From Clostridium sp. BNL1100 (GTDB taxonomy: Bacteria > Bacillota > Clostridia > Acetivibrionales > DSM-1351): a DNA stretch of 64,000 nt. Positions within the stretch are counted from its first letter, which is position 1, and every line of letters starts with the position of its first letter. The DNA lies in assembly GCF_000244875.1 (NCBI RefSeq), contig NC_016791.1:1671501-1735500 (forward strand), written 5' to 3'. The notes below the pieces were generated by a model. It saw nothing but the letters and a program-made list of their open reading frames with translations. It was not told where the DNA came from and ran no database searches. The translations under genes and the position numbers were made by a program. Positions 1-11,939 of this stretch are shown here, piece by piece.

Positions 1-1527
1 GAAGACGAGGGGTTTTCAGGAGGGAATACAAACAGGCCGGAGTTCAAGCAAATGATGCGGGAAGCACGGAGTAAAAAAATTGATATAGTAATTTGCTACA
101 GGCTTGATCGTATAAGCAGAAACGTATCTGATTTTTCTCAGTTAATAAATGAACTTGAAAAATATAACGTAAGCTTTATTTCTGTTAAGGAACAGTTTGA
201 TACAACAAAGCCAATGGGGAGGGCCATGATGTATATAGCATCTGTATTTTCCCAGTTGGAAAGAGAGACCATTGCAGAAAGAATCAGAGATAACATGCTG
301 CAGCTTGCAAAAACCGGAAGGTGGCTTGGAGGTGTTACCCCCACAGGCTATAAATCTGAAATGTTGGATAAAAAGGATTCGTCCTTGAAACAGACCAGAA
401 TTTTCAGGCTTAAAATTTTACCTGAGGAAGCCGAGCTTGTAAAAGATATTTACGATAAATTTATTATTTTCAAATCAATAACCAAGGTAGAAAAAAACCT
501 TCTTGAAAACAGACTTACAACCAAAAACGGGGTGGATTTTTCAAGGTTTTCCCTTCGATTTTTACTTACAAATCCTGTATATGCAATTGCTGACGAGGCT
601 TTATACCACTATCTATCTGGGAAAGGGTATGAGGTATATTCGGATATAAAGGAATTCAATGGTGTTAATGGCCTTATGGCCTACAACAAAACAAGGCAGG
701 GCAAGAACACATTAGGGGAAAAGTACAGGGATCCAAAGGATTGGGTAATAGCGGTAGGAATGCATCCGGGAATCATACCGTCAGGTAAATGGATAGAAGT
801 TCAGAAATTGTTGCAAAGAAATAAAACAAAAGCCTATAGGAATGTTAAAAATACCAATGCTCTGCTGTCAGGGATACTAAAATGTGAAAACTGCGGCAGC
901 TTTATGAGGCCTAAAACAATGTCAAGGGTGGATTCGGAAGGGAAAAGGGTTTATTACTATATTTGCGAGTTAAAGGAAAAAAGTAATAAAACACGTTGTG
1001 ATACTCCAAATATAAACGGTAATCTATTGGACTCCTTAATACTTGAAAGGTTAATCAGCCTCATAAAAGATTATTATCCGGCAGTCAACCCCGGCTTACT
1101 GTTGACCCTGCATGATAGCACACAGACTGCTCAAAATCCTGAAATAAAGCTAATTAAAGGCAAACTCATGGCAGCAGAGACAGAAATGAAGAACCTTATA
1201 AGACTTGCATCCAAACAAGCAGATGAAAAGGTACAATCATTAATATTAAAGCGTATGGAGAATATATCAAAAGACATCAACATATACACAAACAGAATCA
1301 AACAGTTGGATGGTCTTCCTGAAAAAAAGGACATTGAAGAAGCCGACGAAGAAAAAATCATACAAATACTGTCAAACCCCGGTTACTGCATTATGAATCT
1401 AATGGATATAAAGCAAAAGAGAGAGATTTTAAAAAGTTTAATTGAATTTATTGCATGGGACTGCACACAGGTAAAGGTTTGGCTTAACAGCAGAAAAATG
1501 TTGCCTGAGTGTAAGGATTGCAAATGA
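1..1527 (+). CDS. large serine recombinase, skin-element (SpoIVCA) type, 5' end outside window
   Basis: The frame is open from base 1, so 508 residues are visible and the start of the catalytic domain (with the nucleophilic Ser) lies off the left edge. Visible parts are [14 protein letters not shown], the YRLDRISR motif, the E-helix [16 protein letters not shown], the recombinase domain, a zinc ribbon (CENCG near residue 297, then further Cys) and a C-terminal coiled coil. Enzymes of this family integrate and excise DNA through a Ser-DNA link. The TGA stop (1525-1527) is part of an AATGA, which is also the first sigK codons on the right. This puts the gene at the extreme right end of an element inserted in sigK, as expected for a skin-type excision recombinase. 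The product class is clear. The role in sigK excision is inferred from position. Confidence 0.9.
1523..1527 (+). other. right attachment core (AATGA) of the first sigK-interrupting element
   Basis: AATGA begins the Asn-Glu codons of the sigma-K NEILM motif and also supplies the last bases of the recombinase stop codon. From memory, the Bacillus subtilis skin element recombines in an AATGA at this same Asn-Glu pair. The partner copy and the N-terminal sigK piece should lie to the left, outside the window. Confidence 0.7.
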
Positions 1528-1621
1528 GATTCTAATGCAAATCAGGGCATCTAAGAAAATTCAGAATGAGGTTTCTTTGCAAGACCCTATTGGTGTCGAT
1601 AAAGAGGGTAATGAAATAACA
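1523..1621 (+). CDS. sigK: sigK middle segment (sigma-K, interrupted gene)
   Basis: Read from 1523, this stretch encodes [12 protein letters not shown] followed by [18 protein letters not shown]. That matches the end of region 2 and the start of region 3 of sporulation sigma-K (SigE has a different sequence here). It has no start or ribosome site of its own, and beyond codon Thr at 1621 the frame runs into element sequence and stops at 1640-1642. The segment lies between two recombination sites: AATGA at 1523 and AATGAAATAACAT at 1610. The 87 bp between the two Asn codons equal 29 codons, which agrees with the spacing of NEILM and GNEIS in B. subtilis SigK as I recall it. It is therefore a gene piece to be joined by DNA excision on both sides, not random decay. 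Function requires both junctions to be healed. Confidence 0.85.
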
Positions 1622-1637
1622 TATTCATGTTATATAC
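1610..1637. repeat. attL of second element: 13-bp core plus inner arm
   Basis: The core AATGAAATAACAT (1610-1622) is identical to 7007-7019. Just inside the element, TTCATGTTATATAC (1624-1637) is an imperfect inverted copy (12 of 14) of GTATACAACCTGAA at 6987-7000. The two arms would flank the core symmetrically in the excised circle, as a serine recombinase dimer site should. Confidence 0.75.
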
Positions 1638-1749
1638 CTTGATGTCCGCACCCCTGCGTCAATAAAATAAATGATTATACGCTCTTAGTAGTATATCAGA
1701 TATGGCTAATCTGCTTAAATAATTATCTTTTTTATTCATGTTGAAACAG

Positions 1750-2604
1750 CTATTTATAAAACAATAACCTTTTTGAGTATGCATTCCGGTATTGTGTCGG
1801 TGTAAGTCCTACTGCCTTCTTGAATACCTTCATGAAACTATGGTTGTCATTAAACCCTACACTGTAAGCTATGCCACTTATATTATCGTTTGTCTCGCAC
1901 AGCAAATATTTGGCAAGGTCGATTTTTTCCTGAATTATATACTGCTTAAGGGAGAAGCCTGAAATATTTTTGAAAAATTCAGATAGGTATCTCCTGTTAT
2001 ATCCAAAATGTGCTGCTATTTCTGATACCCTTATATCAGTATTTCGATGCCATTTTATATAATCTTGTATATCATTAAACAGCTGCTTTTTCTTCATGTC
2101 CGAATTTTGAGGAGTATTGTTTTCCAAGAATTGGCAAAACAATTCACATAGAACGGCTGTACTCAGATAATTGTTCTGAAGCTTGTTGTGGTAGCTTCTG
2201 ACACTGTCCTGAAGGTGCTTCATAATAACTATAATCTTCTCAAGGTTTGTTGTTTTGCCATATTGGGGAATATATATTTTTTCATCCGGCATATCCCTCG
2301 GAATTTGATCGAAAGATATTTTACGGTATGGATTTTCATATGAAAAGTGCAGCCAATAAAAAGCACAGCTGCTGTTTTTATAGCCTGATTGCCTGGAAGA
2401 CGGCGGAAAGAGCAGAAATTCACCCTTGCCTATATCAAAGAACTGATTGTCCAACTGTAAATAAGCCATACCTTCTGTAACAACAATAAGTTCAAAATTC
2501 TGCATGTACCTTGTAAAGTGCATCCATTCATAAGATGGAGCTTGAAACTTGCCTGTTAAATCGTATTTTAATGGGGTCTCAAGTGAAAATTCATAGCATG
2601 TCAT
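1750..2604 (-). CDS. AraC-family transcriptional regulator
   Basis: This is a 284-residue protein with an N-terminal cupin-like sugar-sensing half (roughly residues 1-140) and a C-terminal pair of helix-turn-helix motifs. The second motif reads GFNDNHSFMKVFKK and ends in GLTPTQYR, typical of AraC/XylS proteins. I chose the ATG at 2604 because AGGTGG lies 11 bases upstream. The GTG at 2619 overlaps that site and would add five residues. It is divergent from the GH127 gene, from which about 120 bp separate it, so it most likely controls that gene in response to an arabinose-type sugar. It has no visible role in recombination and is cargo of the second sigK element. The ligand is not evident. 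Confidence 0.9.
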   Translation of the reverse strand: MTCYEFSLETPLKYDLTGKFQAPSYEWMHFTRYMQNFELIVVTEGMAYLQLDNQFFDIGKGEFLLFPPSSRQSGYKNSSCAFYWLHFSYENPYRKISFDQIPRDMPDEKIYIPQYGKTTNLEKIIVIMKHLQDSVRSYHNKLQNNYLSTAVLCELFCQFLENNTPQNSDMKKKQLFNDIQDYIKWHRNTDIRVSEIAAHFGYNRRYLSEFFKNISGFSLKQYIIQEKIDLAKYLLCETNDNISGIAYSVGFNDNHSFMKVFKKAVGLTPTQYRNAYSKRLLFYK

Positions 2605-2653
2605 ATGACTTTTTACCACCTATTCTGCAAAAAATCCATTTAATTTATATATA

Positions 2654-2686
2654 TTAATTGGTACACTGAAATTAAAGTACAATTAA
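2654..2686. promoter_or_regulatory. inverted repeat in the AraC / GH127 divergent region, possible operator
   Basis: TTAATTGGTAC and GTACAATTAA form an imperfect dyad with a 12-base centre midway between the two divergent genes. A regulator site is a reasonable guess. No clear -35/-10 pair could be assigned. Confidence 0.3.
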
Positions 2687-2725
2687 ATTATTAAAGGGGC
2701 GTTTACTACGATTAAATCATTTTCT

Positions 2726-4957
2726 ATGTCACAGGTGAAGCTTATTGATCCCTATTTGGTAAATGCATTCAAAAAGGAAATAGAGTATCTGGAATCCTTT
2801 GACTGCGACAAATTATTATCCTGTTTTTATAAAACAAAAGGCCTTGCACCTAAAGCGAAAAACTACCATGGATGGGAGGATACCGAGATCAGAGGTCACA
2901 CCATGGGCCACTATCTGACGGCTTTGGCACAAGCTTATTCTGCTACTAATGATAGCAAAATTTATGAACGGCTGCAATATTTGCTGAAGGAGCTCTCTTT
3001 GTGCCAATTCGAAAGCGGTTACCTTTCTGCATTTCCAGAGGAGTTTTTTGACAGGGTTGAAAACAGGAAACCTGTGTGGGTGCCGTGGTATACAATGCAT
3101 AAAATAATTACAGGATTAATATCTGTTTATAAACTCACTAAAATAGAAACAGCATTAAATATTGTTTCCGGGCTTGGAGACTGGGTATTTAGCAGAACTG
3201 ACAAATGGACACCTGAAATACATGCAAACGTTTTGGCTGTAGAATACGGCGGTATGAACGATTGTTTGTATGAGCTTTATAAGATAACCGGCAATGAAAA
3301 ACACAGTGCTGCTGCACATATGTTTGATGAAATAGAGCTTTTCAAGGAAATTCATGACGGAAAAGATATACTTAATAACAGACATGCAAATACTACAATA
3401 CCAAAATTCCTAGGTGCTTTGAACCGTTTTCTGGCTATTGGAGAAGAGGAGCAGTTTTACCTGGATACATGCAAAGAATTCTGGAGTATTGTAACAAATA
3501 ACCATAGCTATGTTACCGGCGGCAACAGTGAATGGGAACATTTCGGCGAACCCAATATCCTGGATGCAGAGCGTACTTCAACCAATTGTGAAACCTGTAA
3601 TACATACAATATGCTTAAAATGACAAGAGTACTGTTTAAAATTACCGGGGATAAAAAATATGCCGATTTTTACGAAAATACTTTTATCAATGCAATATTA
3701 TCCTCACAAAACCCGGATACCGGAATGACAATGTACTTTCAACCTATGGCAACAGGTTATTTTAAGGTTTATAGTAAACCTTTCGAGCATTTTTGGTGCT
3801 GTACAGGGACGGGTATGGAAAATTTCACTAAATTGAATAACAGCATATATTTTCATGAAGAAGATAGGTTATACGTTAATATGTATTATTCCACGCTGTT
3901 AAATTGGGAGGAAAAGTGTGTAAGGATTACTCAAAATTCTGACATACCCGGTACTGACAGAGCAAGTTTTATAATCGAAGCAGAAACTGAAACAGAGTTC
4001 ACATTATGTTTGCGTATTCCTACTTGGGCAAAGGATGTAAATATTAATGTAAATAAAAATCCTAGCTTATTCACAGAAGAAAGAGGTTATGCACTTATCA
4101 ATCGTACTTGGAAAGATAATGATACTGTTGAAATCAATTTTAAAATTGAACCCGAATTGGTATCTTTACCCGATAATCCAAATGCAGTTGCATTTACTTA
4201 CGGTCCTGTAGTATTAAGTGCAGGCCTTGGAACAGATAAAATGGAAAAGTCAACTACCGGTATCATGGTAAGAATACCAAGCAAGCACGTGGAAATAAAA
4301 GACTATTTAGTTATTATAAATCAAAGCATAGATACATGGAAAAAGGATATCGCATTAAATCTGGAAAAAGCTGAGGGCAAGTTGGAATTCAGGTTAAAAG
4401 GTACCGATGAAGATGAAAGGCTAGTATTTACTCCTCATTACAGACAGCATAGCCAGAGATACGGAATATACTGGGTTCTTGTTCAGGATGGCTCAGATGA
4501 TCTGAACAAGTACATTGAACAAAAGAAACAAGTTGAACGAATCAAAGAGGCAGAGATTGACAATATACAGATTGGCAATGACCAATATGAACTGTCCCAT
4601 GATATTAAGGGTCAATATACCGAGTCAGGCGATAGGGATGGATTCCATTATAGATTTGCAAAAGAGAATGGCTGGTTTAGCTACAATTTAAAAGTAAGAA
4701 ATGATGATAATTCTTTTCTGCAAATCAATTATATGCCGGCAGACTGCAGAGAAAGTTTTGATATATTGATTAATGATACCCTGCTTTTACGGGAAGTTAT
4801 AGGAGAAACACCTTGGAATAAAACAGTTTCTAAAGTATACCCTATTTCGAAGGAATTGATTGGGGAAAATGATTTTGTTACAGTTAAGTTCATGGCTTCA
4901 GCACACGAAGCAACTGCAAGGGTAGTTGATATTATCCGTACAATAAAAGAAGTGTAA
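2726..4957 (+). CDS. GH127 (DUF1680) beta-L-arabinofuranosidase
   Basis: This 743-residue protein has the DUF1680 fold: an (alpha/alpha)6 barrel followed by beta-sandwich domains. The family zinc site is visible as NCETC (Glu289, Cys291) and FWCCTGTGMENF (Cys358, Cys359). These match the Glu-Cys-Cys-Cys set of Bifidobacterium HypBA1, where the first Cys of the CC pair is the nucleophile. No signal peptide is present, so it should act inside the cell on imported beta-L-arabinofuranosyl oligosaccharides such as those from extensin-type plant glycoproteins. The ATG at 2726 has only a distant AGGGG, so the start is less certain than the family. It lies divergent from the AraC gene and convergent with the recombinase, inside the element that splits sigK. 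Confidence 0.88.
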   Translation: MSQVKLIDPYLVNAFKKEIEYLESFDCDKLLSCFYKTKGLAPKAKNYHGWEDTEIRGHTMGHYLTALAQAYSATNDSKIYERLQYLLKELSLCQFESGYLSAFPEEFFDRVENRKPVWVPWYTMHKIITGLISVYKLTKIETALNIVSGLGDWVFSRTDKWTPEIHANVLAVEYGGMNDCLYELYKITGNEKHSAAAHMFDEIELFKEIHDGKDILNNRHANTTIPKFLGALNRFLAIGEEEQFYLDTCKEFWSIVTNNHSYVTGGNSEWEHFGEPNILDAERTSTNCETCNTYNMLKMTRVLFKITGDKKYADFYENTFINAILSSQNPDTGMTMYFQPMATGYFKVYSKPFEHFWCCTGTGMENFTKLNNSIYFHEEDRLYVNMYYSTLLNWEEKCVRITQNSDIPGTDRASFIIEAETETEFTLCLRIPTWAKDVNINVNKNPSLFTEERGYALINRTWKDNDTVEINFKIEPELVSLPDNPNAVAFTYGPVVLSAGLGTDKMEKSTTGIMVRIPSKHVEIKDYLVIINQSIDTWKKDIALNLEKAEGKLEFRLKGTDEDERLVFTPHYRQHSQRYGIYWVLVQDGSDDLNKYIEQKKQVERIKEAEIDNIQIGNDQYELSHDIKGQYTESGDRDGFHYRFAKENGWFSYNLKVRNDDNSFLQINYMPADCRESFDILINDTLLLREVIGETPWNKTVSKVYPISKELIGENDFVTVKFMASAHEATARVVDIIRTIKEV

Positions 4958-4993
4958 GCAAGGGTGTTGTTTGATATTAAGGAATTGCTATGA

Positions 4994-5045
4994 TATAAGG
5001 AGCTGTTCAAAACAGAAAACTTTCTGTTGCAACAGCCCCTTATAT
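4994..5045. terminator. bidirectional hairpin between GH127 and recombinase genes
   Basis: ATATAAGGAGCTGTT (4994-) and AACAGCCCCTTATAT pair with one mismatch, and an inner ACAGAAA/TTTCTGT stem continues the hairpin. It sits between convergent genes and so likely ends both transcripts. Confidence 0.65.
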
Positions 5046-5071
5046 ATTTATTATCATTAAAGAAATTCTGA

Positions 5072-6643
5072 CTATGGTGCCTCAAGTTTTTGTGCTATGG
5101 CATGAAACGTCGGGCATTGTATTTTAGGGTGCAATGCAATTTTAAAATCATCAGCTTTTGCATCATGTGATTTGTTATATACAACCTTATCCAGTACTAA
5201 TTTTATAAGTAGATTTTTATCTGAAGGAGAATCTATTTTTTTATAAGCATCCAAAACGCTTCTCAGGTTTATGATATAATCCTGATTAGTTGTAAATGCC
5301 AGATCAATTTCTTTTAAATGTTTTTTTGATTCTAAAATAGAACTATTAATTTGATTGATTTTTCCTAAGATATAGTTTGTTCTTTCCGTAAAGGTGTCTA
5401 TTTCATATACACCTTGTTCCAGTAAATCAAATGTTTTTACTTTTTGTTGTTCCAGTTTTTTTAATTCATTTTCCAACGAAATTATATTTTTTTCAATCAA
5501 TAAGGATTTTGTTGCATCTCTCTTATGAGGTGTTTTTTTTGCACTAAGCAGCATATTAGAATAATAGTTTTCAAGTTTATCAATCAATAAGGCTTCTACA
5601 GTTATAAACTTGTTGCTTTTCTGTCCGCAGTTTTTTGGACACATAATTCTAGAGTCTTTGTTGATTACAGGACGTTGAATCATTTTGCAGCCGCAAATGC
5701 CGCAAATAACAATACCGGCAAGGGGATTTGTAATGCCGTTTTGAAGCTGATATGGTACATGATATTTCTGAGCCAGAATTTCCTGGGCCTTTTGATATAT
5801 GGATTCTTCTATTATTGCTTCATGTTTTCCATTGCATACAATCCATTCGTCAACAGGTCTGGTATATGTGTCTCTCTTTTTTCCGTATTCTTTTGACTTG
5901 CGTATGCATTTTTTCTTCCAGACAACTTTCCCAATGTAAATTGGATTTTTAATAAAATTAGTTATGGTGGATTTTTCCCACTTGACACCTGTATATGATT
6001 TTATACCTAGTTGGTTAAGCTCATTTGCAATTTTACTGCAGCCCATGTTTTCATTTATGTACCAGTTAAATATCATTTTAACAACCTCTGCTTGTTCTGC
6101 ATTTGGTGTTAATGTTCTGGTATTTTTATCGATTCTTAAAATATCATATCCATATGGTGGTCTTGTTGCAATATAATTTCCTTCTTCAACCGAATTAATT
6201 CTACCACGCTGCATTCGCCTGTTAATCATTTTGTATTCTTTACGACTCATAAAGGCTTCAAATTCACTATATTCCTCATCAAATTCATCATTTAGGTCAT
6301 ATATTTTTTTAGGTGTAATTATTTTAGTGTTAGATTTTTTAAAGGCCTTTAAAATAAGTCCCTGCTCTTCCATGTCACCACGTCCGAGTCTTTGAATATC
6401 CATTACAAGAACACCGTCACAGGCACCGGATTCTACATCTTTTAATGTAGCAAGCATCGCAGGCCTGAAGAATAATTCTTCTCCGGATACAAGCTCTTCA
6501 TGAATATTTAAAATTGTAAACCCATTTTCTTTTGCATATCTTAATAGGGCTTTACGGTGTCTGGCAAGGGTTTCACCATTTCCTAATGTTTTTTCCAGTT
6601 CTTCATCAGATCTTGATTTCCTCAGGTAGATATCAACTATCAT
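5072..6643 (-). CDS. large serine recombinase of the second sigK element
   Basis: The protein has 523 residues. The N-terminal resolvase domain begins IYLRKSRSDEE, with Ser10 as the expected nucleophile. It continues with TLARHRKALL, LVSGEELFFRP and VLVMDIQRLGRGD. A recombinase DNA-binding domain follows (ANELNQLGIK, WEKSTITNFIKNPIYIG), then a zinc ribbon (CGICGCKM and CPKNCG) and a coiled coil around residues 370-450. AAGGAAGGG precedes the ATG. It differs from the left-edge recombinase in both motif spacing and length, so the two were probably acquired separately. As the only recombinase inside the 1610-7006 element it should catalyse its excision from sigK. No sigma-E type promoter could be assigned with confidence in the 170-bp divergent region upstream. 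Confidence 0.93.
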   Translation of the reverse strand: MIVDIYLRKSRSDEELEKTLGNGETLARHRKALLRYAKENGFTILNIHEELVSGEELFFRPAMLATLKDVESGACDGVLVMDIQRLGRGDMEEQGLILKAFKKSNTKIITPKKIYDLNDEFDEEYSEFEAFMSRKEYKMINRRMQRGRINSVEEGNYIATRPPYGYDILRIDKNTRTLTPNAEQAEVVKMIFNWYINENMGCSKIANELNQLGIKSYTGVKWEKSTITNFIKNPIYIGKVVWKKKCIRKSKEYGKKRDTYTRPVDEWIVCNGKHEAIIEESIYQKAQEILAQKYHVPYQLQNGITNPLAGIVICGICGCKMIQRPVINKDSRIMCPKNCGQKSNKFITVEALLIDKLENYYSNMLLSAKKTPHKRDATKSLLIEKNIISLENELKKLEQQKVKTFDLLEQGVYEIDTFTERTNYILGKINQINSSILESKKHLKEIDLAFTTNQDYIINLRSVLDAYKKIDSPSDKNLLIKLVLDKVVYNKSHDAKADDFKIALHPKIQCPTFHAIAQKLEAP

Positions 6644-6813
6644 TTAAGCACATTCCCTTCCTTTAAGTACCCTGATTTTATTTGATCAGTTTAAATATCC
6701 TTACTTCCAGTTTATACAGTTAAAACAATATATAGACTTATAACGACGGCTGAAATAATCATTGAATAATGTACAAACAATTCAAAATAGGTATATAGTG
6801 GAGGTGAATTCCA

Positions 6814-6960
6814 GTGGCGATAGCTGTAATTATCCCACCAAAGATAACACCTGAAGAAAACGAGAAAAGAATTAAAGAACTGGAGAGAGTTTTATCAAAC
6901 ATTTTTAAATATGAGATAGGTATCTCCTTCACTAACAGTAAAAAAAGTCATTCTACATAA
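6814..6960 (+). CDS. 48-residue protein of unknown function inside the second sigK element
   Basis: The GTG start has a strong ribosome site, TGGAGGTGA, six bases upstream. The product begins MAIAVIIPPKITPEE, then has a charged helix (NEKRIKELERVLSNIF) and a short polar tail ending SHST. I recognise no family. It is divergent from the recombinase and lies less than 50 bp from the right attachment site. In Clostridioides difficile a small protein of the skin element acts as the recombination directionality factor needed for excision. By position this is a candidate for that role, which is inference only. Confidence 0.6.
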   Translation: MAIAVIIPPKITPEENEKRIKELERVLSNIFKYEIGISFTNSKKSHST

Positions 6961-6986
6961 CAAATTATTTTTATAGAGTTTAAAAA

Positions 6987-7019
6987 GTATACAACCTGAA
7001 GAAGTCAATGAAATAACAT
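6987..7019. repeat. attR of second element: inner arm plus 13-bp core
   Basis: The arm GTATACAACCTGAA (6987-7000), a 6-base gap and the core AATGAAATAACAT (7007-7019) mirror the left end. In the joined circle the arms would be 20 bases apart, and the dyad centre falls on the GA of AATGA. That is where a serine recombinase would be expected to cut. Confidence 0.75.
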
Positions 7020-7291
7020 TAATAGACTTAATCAGTAATGACTCCGAGTCCGTAGTTGACGAGGTTGAATTGAAAATGCAGGTTAAAAAGCTGTACAGTA
7101 AAATGAAAGGTACTTTGAAAAACAGAGAAAAGGTAGTCTTGGAATTAAGATATGGACTTCTTAACGGTTCAAGTAAAACCCAGAGAGAGATAGCTAAAAT
7201 GTTGGGAATCTCCAGATCCTACGTATCAAGAATTGAAAAGAAAGCAATAAAAAAATTAAGCAAAGAGCTAAAACCAGAGGGCTGCCATTAA
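7007..7291 (+). CDS. sigK: sigK C-terminal segment (sigma-K, interrupted gene)
   Basis: The frame beginning at the core repeat reads NEITLIDLISNDSESVVDE, then LRYGLLNGSSKTQREIA and MLGISRSYVSRIEKKA, ending KPEGCH. This is the end of region 3 and the whole of region 4 (-35 recognition helix-turn-helix) of sigma-K. It has no ribosome site or start of its own at the joint, although TTG at 7070 could be mis-called as a start. Fused to the segment at 1523-1609 it gives [12 protein letters not shown] with no lost or added codon. The encoded factor drives late mother-cell genes (coat, cortex). No point mutations or stops are seen, so the piece appears to be under selection. Confidence 0.9.
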   Translation, partial: NEITLIDLISNDSESVVDEVELKMQVKKLYSKMKGTLKNREKVVLELRYGLLNGSSKTQREIAKMLGISRSYVSRIEKKAIKKLSKELKPEGCH

Positions 7292-10621: not shown

Positions 10622-11329
10622 ATGAGTGAACTAAAATATAAGAGAATAATGTTAAAAATCAGTGGAGAAGCACTTGCCGGTGATAAGGGACACGGTATTG
10701 ATACCGATACAGTAAACGAAATATGTGACAGAATATCAGTAGTGCATAAAATGGGTGCTGAAATAGCTATAGTAGTAGGTGGAGGTAATTTCTGGAGAGG
10801 CAGAAGCGGAAAAGGTATGGACAGAACAACCGCCGACCATATGGGAATGCTTGCAACGGTAATTAATTCTCTTGGATTGCAGGACGCACTTGAATCTAGA
10901 GATATTCCCGTGAGGGTTCAGACTGCTATTGAAATGAGGCAGATTGCTGAACCTTATGTAAGAAGAAAAGCTGTAAGGCATCTTGAAAAGAAAAGAATAG
11001 TTATATTTGCGTGCGGAATGGGGAATCCTTATTTCTCAACCGACACAGCAGCAGCATTAAGAGCAGCCGAGATAGATGCTGAAGTAATATTAATGGCAAA
11101 GAATGTAGATGGAATATATGATTCTGATCCGTCAAAGAATGCCAATGCAGTAAAATACAATAAGATTAGCTATCAGGAGTACCTTAACAAAGGACTTTGT
11201 GCAATTGATCTGACAGCCGCTTCATTTTGTAAAGATAATGCAATACCTACACTGGTTTTCGGTCTTAATGATCCGGATAACATAATCAGAGCTGTAAAAG
11301 GTGAAGAGATTGGTACTACAATATATTGA
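10622..11329 (+). CDS. pyrH: UMP kinase
   Basis: The 235-residue protein belongs to the amino-acid-kinase fold. It starts [15 protein letters not shown] and has [26 protein letters not shown] and [12 protein letters not shown]. It phosphorylates UMP to UDP for RNA and for UDP-sugar supply to the wall enzymes in this region. The ATG follows GGGGG at seven bases. It is followed by frr 52 bases later, the usual pairing. Confidence 0.97.
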
Positions 11330-11381
11330 AATCCTTCATAAATAAATGTATTATATAAGTATTAATTTAAGGAGGAGATTT

Positions 11382-11939
11382 ATGGATAAGGAACTTTACA
11401 AGCCAATCGAAGAAAAAATGAAAAAAACCATAAATGTATTAAAGGACAATCTTGCTGGAATCAGAGCAGGAAGAGCGAATCCTGCAATATTGGATAAACT
11501 CACAATTGATTATTATGGTGCACCGACTCCTATTCAGCAGATTGCAACAGTGTCTGTACCTGAAGCCAGGGTTATTTTAATTCAGCCATGGGAAGCAAAA
11601 CTGCTAAAAGACATTGAAAAGGAAATTCAAAAGTCTGATATAGGAATCAATCCTAACAATGATGGTAAGGTTATAAGGCTTGTTTTTCCTGCATTAACAG
11701 AAGAAAGACGTAAAGAACTTACAAAGCAGGCAAAAAAAGAAGGCGAAGAATCAAAAGTTGCCATAAGATCAATTAGAAGAGATTCTATTGAAAGCATGAA
11801 GGCAAAGAAAAAGAGCGGCGAAATTACAGAAGACGATTTAAAGGATGCAGAAAAGGATATACAGAACCTTACTGACAGATATATTGCCGACATTGACAAG
11901 ATTATTGAAGCCAAAGATAAGGAAATAATGGAGGTATAA
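11382..11939 (+). CDS. frr: ribosome recycling factor
   Basis: This 185-residue protein has the RRF pattern: LAGIRAGRANPAILDKL, the IQQIATVSVPEARVI stretch and EERRKELTKQAKKEGE. With EF-G it splits post-termination ribosomes. ATG 11382 follows AAGGAGGAGAT. The longer frame back to 11346 would place that site inside the gene. Confidence 0.97.
   Translation: MDKELYKPIEEKMKKTINVLKDNLAGIRAGRANPAILDKLTIDYYGAPTPIQQIATVSVPEARVILIQPWEAKLLKDIEKEIQKSDIGINPNNDGKVIRLVFPALTEERRKELTKQAKKEGEESKVAIRSIRRDSIESMKAKKKSGEITEDDLKDAEKDIQNLTDRYIADIDKIIEAKDKEIMEV

Follow-up and report, generated by a model that had tools for sequence, protein, structure and literature searches.

The question raised by this locus is how the gene for sigma-K can be interrupted by DNA that carries genes for plant-sugar catabolism, and why such DNA should remain there. 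Previously known skin elements are for the most part remnants of prophages and split sigK at a single point. The stretch analysed, called the window below, comprises the 64,000 nucleotides from base 1671501 to base 1735500 (1671501-1735500) of the closed 4,613,747-bp genome of the plant-fibre degrader Clostridium sp. BNL1100 (G000, the genome under study); positions refer to the window unless given as genome positions. It is highly probable, in our judgement, that sigK is here a three-exon gene split by two independent and probably orthogonal skin-type elements, both of which would be excised in the mother cell before sigma-K is made.

Three pieces of sigK and the elements between them

A profile search of the G000 genome with TIGR02846 finds sigK as three pieces, with two DNA elements between them. 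The 5' exon lies at genome 1666094-1666435 (TIGR02846 positions 4-118). The middle exon is a 101-bp segment on the + strand at 1522-1622, covering approximately residues 99-131 of the mature reading frame (profile match at genome 1673017-1673121, TIGR02846 positions 109-143, E 4e-13); it is bordered on the left by AAATG at 1522, the core of attR of element A, and on the right by the core of attL of element B. The 3' exon, at 7007-7291 (+), runs from region 4 to the end of the protein (Sigma70_r4, E 2e-15) and is matched best by SigK models, with TIGR02846 positions 137-226 at genome 1678498-1678770. The only other full SigK-type match in G000 is a SigE-like paralogue. The original prediction, which placed sigK sequence on both sides of the cargo, was right in this respect but counted two pieces where there are three, its left fragment being the middle exon only.

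Removal of both elements in silico, with the joins made at AAATG and AATGAAATAACAT, gives a single 218-codon sigK ORF, which aligns without gaps to the uninterrupted sigK of the congener G003 (94-95% amino acid identity). Because both joins keep the sigK frame and the alignment to an intact gene is gapless, chance can be ruled out. Upstream of the first ATG there is a TTG-started leader that reads LIDILFSTIFDVLSNFFV; it is hydrophobic and appears to resemble a pro-sequence.

Element B, the second of the intervening elements, spans 1610-7019 (5,397 bp core to core) and is inserted at sigK codon ~128; it is thus considerably longer than the interval of 1750-4957 originally assigned to it. It is bounded by the direct 13-bp repeat AATGAAATAACAT, with copies at 1610-1622 and 7007-7019, and since these cores are in direct orientation, recombination between them deletes the DNA that they enclose and restores sigK. 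The attL site (1610-1637, +) consists of the core at 1610-1622 and the right attP arm TTCATGTTATATAC (1624-1637), and the attR site (6987-7019, +) of the left attP arm GTATACAACCTGAA (6987-7000) and the core at 7007-7019. In the rebuilt attP of site B, the arms GTATACAACCTGAA and TTCATGTTATATAC are complementary at 12 of 14 positions. The element contains an AraC-type regulator, a GH127-superfamily gene, a serine recombinase and a 48-aa ORF. The regulator and glycosidase had been predicted with almost nothing else beside them; the pair is present, but the recombinase and the candidate recombination directionality factor (RDF) within the element had been missed, as had the second element and the phage origin discussed below.

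Element A (6,611 bp) lies between the 5' exon and the middle exon of sigK, mostly outside the window, with its insertion point at sigK codon ~98 and a 5-bp core, AAATG. Across site-A elements the left ends read GAAAATGC(A/T)AT and the right ends GCAAATGARAT, and the site-A arms CGGAAACA and TGTTTCCG are seen in many relatives. Both elements interrupt the sigK frame, carry a direct core repeat at which sigK is restored exactly, and encode a large serine recombinase, as expected of skin-type elements. The central proposal of the original prediction, that a skin-type element with catabolic rather than phage cargo interrupts sigK, is therefore borne out by the flanking sigK pieces, the core repeat and the AraC–glycosidase pair.

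Excision genes, phage relatives and cargo

Each element has its own recombinase. The gene of the element-A enzyme (Rec_A, ~550 aa) begins just before the window, at about genome 1671324, and its 3' part occupies 1-1527 (+); the protein has Resolvase, Recombinase and Zn-ribbon domains, and has homologues in other members of the genus with a site-A element. That of element B (Rec_B, 5072-6643, -, 523 aa) has Resolvase and Recombinase domains and matches the PHROG integrase family phrog_95 (E 7e-103). The proteins of site A and those of site B form separate groups in a tree of 66 recombinases. Beside each recombinase is a small ORF. In element B this is at 6814-6960 (+), encodes 48 aa from a GTG start behind a GGAGGTG ribosome-binding site, and is divergent from Rec_B; homologues are found near the integrase in G006 (90%), in the viral contigs L134 and L135 (54-59%), in L136 (47%) and in element B of G028 (33%), and there is a match to phrog_15837 (E 8e-4). 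In element A the corresponding ORF encodes 62 aa, and ORFs of this one family, 62-70 aa long, are found next to Rec_A in ten elements, the copy in G004 being the most divergent. Position, size and conservation make the 48-aa and 62-aa products candidate RDFs. In position beside the recombinase and in size they match Skr (64 aa) of the B. subtilis skin element and CD1234 (72 aa) of its C. difficile counterpart, both of which are proven RDFs (PMC6957869, PMC5025042). The sequences preceding the candidate RDF ORFs were scanned for sigma-E-like promoters, and in 12 of 13 cases they did not score above shuffled controls.

The integrases closest to Rec_B are those of two IMG/VR contigs, L134 (40.9 kb) and L135 (32.5 kb), which are 70-71% identical to it and form its sister group in the tree (100/99). 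In L134, sigK residues 4-127 (96% identical) directly adjoin the integrase; this contig is a prophage at site B. In L135, sigK residues 94-127 alone adjoin the integrase and the contig ends there; this remnant corresponds to the middle exon left by a site-A element. Both contigs carry repressors, an ImmA-like protease and further phage genes. Since the recombinases closest to Rec_B belong to phages inserted at the same codon of sigK, element B looks like a stripped relative of phages that use codon ~128 as attB, that is, a gutted prophage that would have kept its excision unit and gained cargo. Rec_B is located at the opposite end of the element from the integrase of L134 and L135, and so the history of deletion and insertion would not have been simple. 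Among INPHARED phages sigK gave weaker matches only (<60% identity), and no sigK-flanked phage was recognised among the matches listed.

A homologue of Rec_B is also found away from sigK (L174:8253-9767, genome 2886252-2887766); it is an intact 504-aa protein (47%) encoded near a partial second recombinase, and similar genes occur in most of the genus. It was considered as a pseudogene on account of stops seen in several genomes, but these look like an effect of match edges because the gene is intact in G000.

The cargo of element B comprises the AraC-type regulator (1750-2619, -, 289 aa; HTH_18, E 4e-20, and AraC_binding, E 8e-6) and a beta-L-arabinofuranosidase-type enzyme of the GH127 superfamily (2726-4957, +, 743 aa) with the domains PF07944 (E 2e-105), Glyco_hydro127M and DUF6805, in which a signal peptide is not apparent. 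The closest solved structures to the enzyme are 5opj/6yqh and 8k7x (E 7e-111 and 5e-107), which we take to be GH146-type enzymes, and its metal-site motifs, E-T-C (from residue 289) and a Cys-Cys pair (358-359), are conserved relative to solved relatives. A strict GH127 assignment was rejected: although the Pfam model for the GH127 superfamily matches, the strict GH127 enzyme 4qjy does so far more weakly (1e-23). The full-length similarity, together with the E-T-C/C-C metal and nucleophile site, indicates a predicted GH146-type enzyme. Thus, of the earlier description as a GH127 enzyme with intact zinc ligands, the superfamily and the conserved metal motifs stand, but the family is GH146-like. 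The enzyme had no match in IMG/VR viral contigs, and is therefore not a known phage gene. The cargo of element A is of another kind, namely a CO-dehydrogenase-family protein (CooS) and an ABC transporter (ATPase, permease and NMT1-type binding protein).

Relatives, selection and retention of the elements

Eleven genomes of the genus were surveyed. One (G003) has an intact sigK and ten have a site-A element, two of which (G000 and its congener G006, with the same double split) have a site-B element too; site B is uninterrupted in the other genus members with sequence there. The site-A element ranges from ~2.1 kb in G004 to 16 kb in G005. The former (L047:3010-5138) has the 62-aa ORF and the recombinase only, with no cargo, and is close to the minimum possible. 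The latter (L048:1681-11078) carries an ABC transporter and a cluster of asparagine-synthase, nitroreductase and ThiF-like genes, which looks like a peptide-modification cluster.

Elsewhere in the order, the closed genome G028, from another family, has elements at both sites and hence a three-part sigK; one, of 3.8 kb, encodes a Gfo/Idh/MocA oxidoreductase, and the other, of 3.3 kb, a metallo-beta-lactamase-fold protein and an AsnC regulator. In G041 only site B is interrupted. In the incomplete genome G026 the site-A element encodes a GH9 cellulase with CBM3 and dockerin modules, and a double split is probable because the middle exon lies at a contig end; in G052 the cargo is GH42 and a GH109-like protein. 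Such recurring glycosidase cargo proves little by itself, because these genomes are rich in genes of this kind. In a class-wide sample of 196 genomes, the sigK matches listed were mostly full length, with one more site-B-like truncation (G230), and the loci kept from a wider contig scan were intact sigK genes of other genera, which dominate because the ranking favours unbroken matches. Two further loci are of interest. G032 (L164:4572-4859, 11045-11698) has an intact sigK and, ~6 kb downstream of it, another copy of the 3' exon whose junction is site-B-like; no recombinase is evident between the two. This copy may be a relic, or it may have come with an element that supplied a 3' end of its own. 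In G014 (L165:589-4054) sigK is intact, and 9-13 kb downstream of it lie several decayed fragments of the gene, which may be what is left of lost elements.

Selection was estimated as dN/dS between G000 and G006, whose divergence corresponds to a dS of 0.47, with similar dS among the genes compared. The joined sigK gives 0.005, with 99.5% amino acid identity, and it follows that the split gene is still working. The values are 0.12 for the enzyme, 0.18 for Rec_B, 0.16 for the 48-aa ORF, 0.13 for Rec_A, 0.04 for CooS and 0.07 for the neighbouring MATE gene, which indicates that the cargo, like the split gene, is in use. These figures bear directly on whether the locus is dead, with sporulation lost and sigK a pseudogene in which the elements are no more than ordinary insertions. 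That reading could appeal to the three separate pieces, none of which makes sigma-K alone; it is very improbable, being largely refuted by the selection on the joined exons, and both recombinases are likewise under purifying selection and the att cores intact. Still more improbable is that the AraC–glycosidase pair is ancestral chromosomal sequence and the flanking sigK pieces a duplication or an assembly error, for which we found no supporting point. G006 has the same arrangement (87-88% identity), the sigK of G003 is intact and the pair is absent there, site B is unbroken in the other genus members just mentioned, and a similar double split exists in G028. An ancestral pair without flanking sigK was the finding that the original prediction had named as contrary to it; at a free chromosomal site the pair was found in no genome of the genus or order searched. 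The only close copy of the cargo (88%) is that in G006, likewise inside sigK, and the remaining homologues are at most 53% identical (48-53% for the best glycosidase homologues elsewhere in the order).

The reading to which we give an even chance is that element B is a decaying prophage remnant, in which the regulator and the glycosidase are chance passengers and the location in sigK is irrelevant to their retention. It is compatible with the three-exon explanation and differs from it only in the meaning given to the location. The phage origin of the excision unit is consistent with it, as are the very different cargoes of other skin elements in the order and the persistence of the cargo-free element in G004; furthermore, the AraC gene has been deleted from the G006 copy, leaving its start region as the scar GACTTTTTACCACCTATTCTG, and the element is retained. 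Against it, the glycosidase has no viral match in IMG/VR, and it is intact and has been under purifying selection across the whole G000–G006 divergence, which argues that the enzyme is in use. The G004 and G006 cases also count against the suggestion in the original prediction that the cargo explains how so small an element stays fixed. A reason that we rank above the cargo is that loss of the recombinase without clean excision would destroy sigK. For other elements it has been stated that selection for sporulation preserves the recombinase on which the rebuilding of a sporulation gene depends (PMC6957869). The cargo may then gain a safe, vertically inherited place.

Returning to the three-exon explanation, we propose that both elements stay integrated in vegetative cells and in the spore, with sigK off and the cargo presumably expressed during growth. 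In the mother cell, a full-length sigK would arise only once each recombinase–RDF pair had excised its own element, whichever came first; the original prediction likewise had the forespore keep the cargo and the mother cell lose it. From the exon map, either excision alone would give a truncated product. The timing and cell type are proposed by analogy with B. subtilis and C. difficile. As two excisions would be required, sigma-K would be placed behind a two-event gate. Element B would descend from a temperate phage at sigK codon ~128 that lost nearly all of its phage genes, and element A is built in the same way, its cargo being CO dehydrogenase and an ABC transporter.

Comparison with known systems and implications

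Elements in sigK, elements without phage genes and phages in sigK are all already known. The skin element of Bacillus subtilis (SpoIVCA, Skr) resembles those described here in splitting sigK, in its large serine recombinase and adjoining small RDF gene, and in its very short core, but it is a 48-kb prophage remnant and a single interruption, in contrast to two small elements with metabolic cargo. Its core is AATGA, and presumably its site matches site A. The sigK of Clostridioides difficile is likewise split by an element, skinCd, with a recombinase (CD1231) and an RDF (CD1234), the latter only a candidate in our case; there is one element, of 19 genes, and a sigma-K without a pro-sequence, whereas here there are two and a hydrophobic leader is still encoded. 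The skinCd site differs from that of B. subtilis (PMC5025042, PMC6957869), and may be site B.

The gin element in gerE of Bacillus cereus ATCC 10987 is a precedent for a sporulation-gene element without phage genes (PMC5595907), although it is 28.6 kb long with three recombinases, compared with ~5-7 kb and one recombinase each for the two elements in a single gene here. The temperate phages phiS63 and MMB025 use sigK as attB (PMC13141910) and L134 and L135 are of that kind; those are complete phages, whereas element B keeps the excision unit only. The cyanobacterial heterocyst elements (in nifD, fdxN and hupL) are also excised developmentally from a gene of a terminally differentiated cell, and their enzyme XisF belongs to the same superfamily of serine recombinases, but the phylum and the genes are different. 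In a literature search of incomplete coverage, with most subscription journals outside it, we found no report of a doubly interrupted sigK, of clostridial elements of this small size that combine a single recombinase with metabolic cargo, or of such elements carrying genes for carbohydrate enzymes.

The coat gene beside sigK, cotJC, is cut in three by recombinase-bearing elements in G000, G002, G005, G006 and G007. In G002 (L177) the three pieces fuse well, the second join reading KGTLTDVGTEEL, and the elements hold adjacent ORFs of 2586 and 2793 bp with the cotJC middle exon between them. In length these agree with the published cel44O and cel5I of C. cellulolyticum, genes that are reported to be transcribed in cellulose-based media (PMC3551867); the cargo of such elements can thus be active in growth. 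The G000 counterpart (L003:5633-12832, genome 1657633-1664832, with L176) has a GH44-dockerin cellulase gene; the third piece of cotJC there lies at a distance of 88 kb, and the second join is unclear. Tentatively, and with rather less than even confidence, we suggest that in cellulolytic clostridia sigK and cotJC, each in three exons, are stable homes for metabolic genes including expressed cellulases, that sporulation requires several programmed excisions per mother cell, and that the elements are vertically inherited, sporulation-protected islands for growth-phase genes.

The compact recombinase–RDF pairs, which may be orthogonal, are candidate tools. The relatives provide a whole series, from the intact gene through a phage at the site, a recombinase and RDF only and a cargo-bearing element to the double element. 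The reason why such elements accumulate in sporulation genes is thereby open to test, both comparatively and with simple deletions. Here the elements carry working metabolic genes in place of phage genes, and the master gene of the late mother-cell programme would need two independent excisions, amounting to a two-input gate in which two different recombination units are combined.
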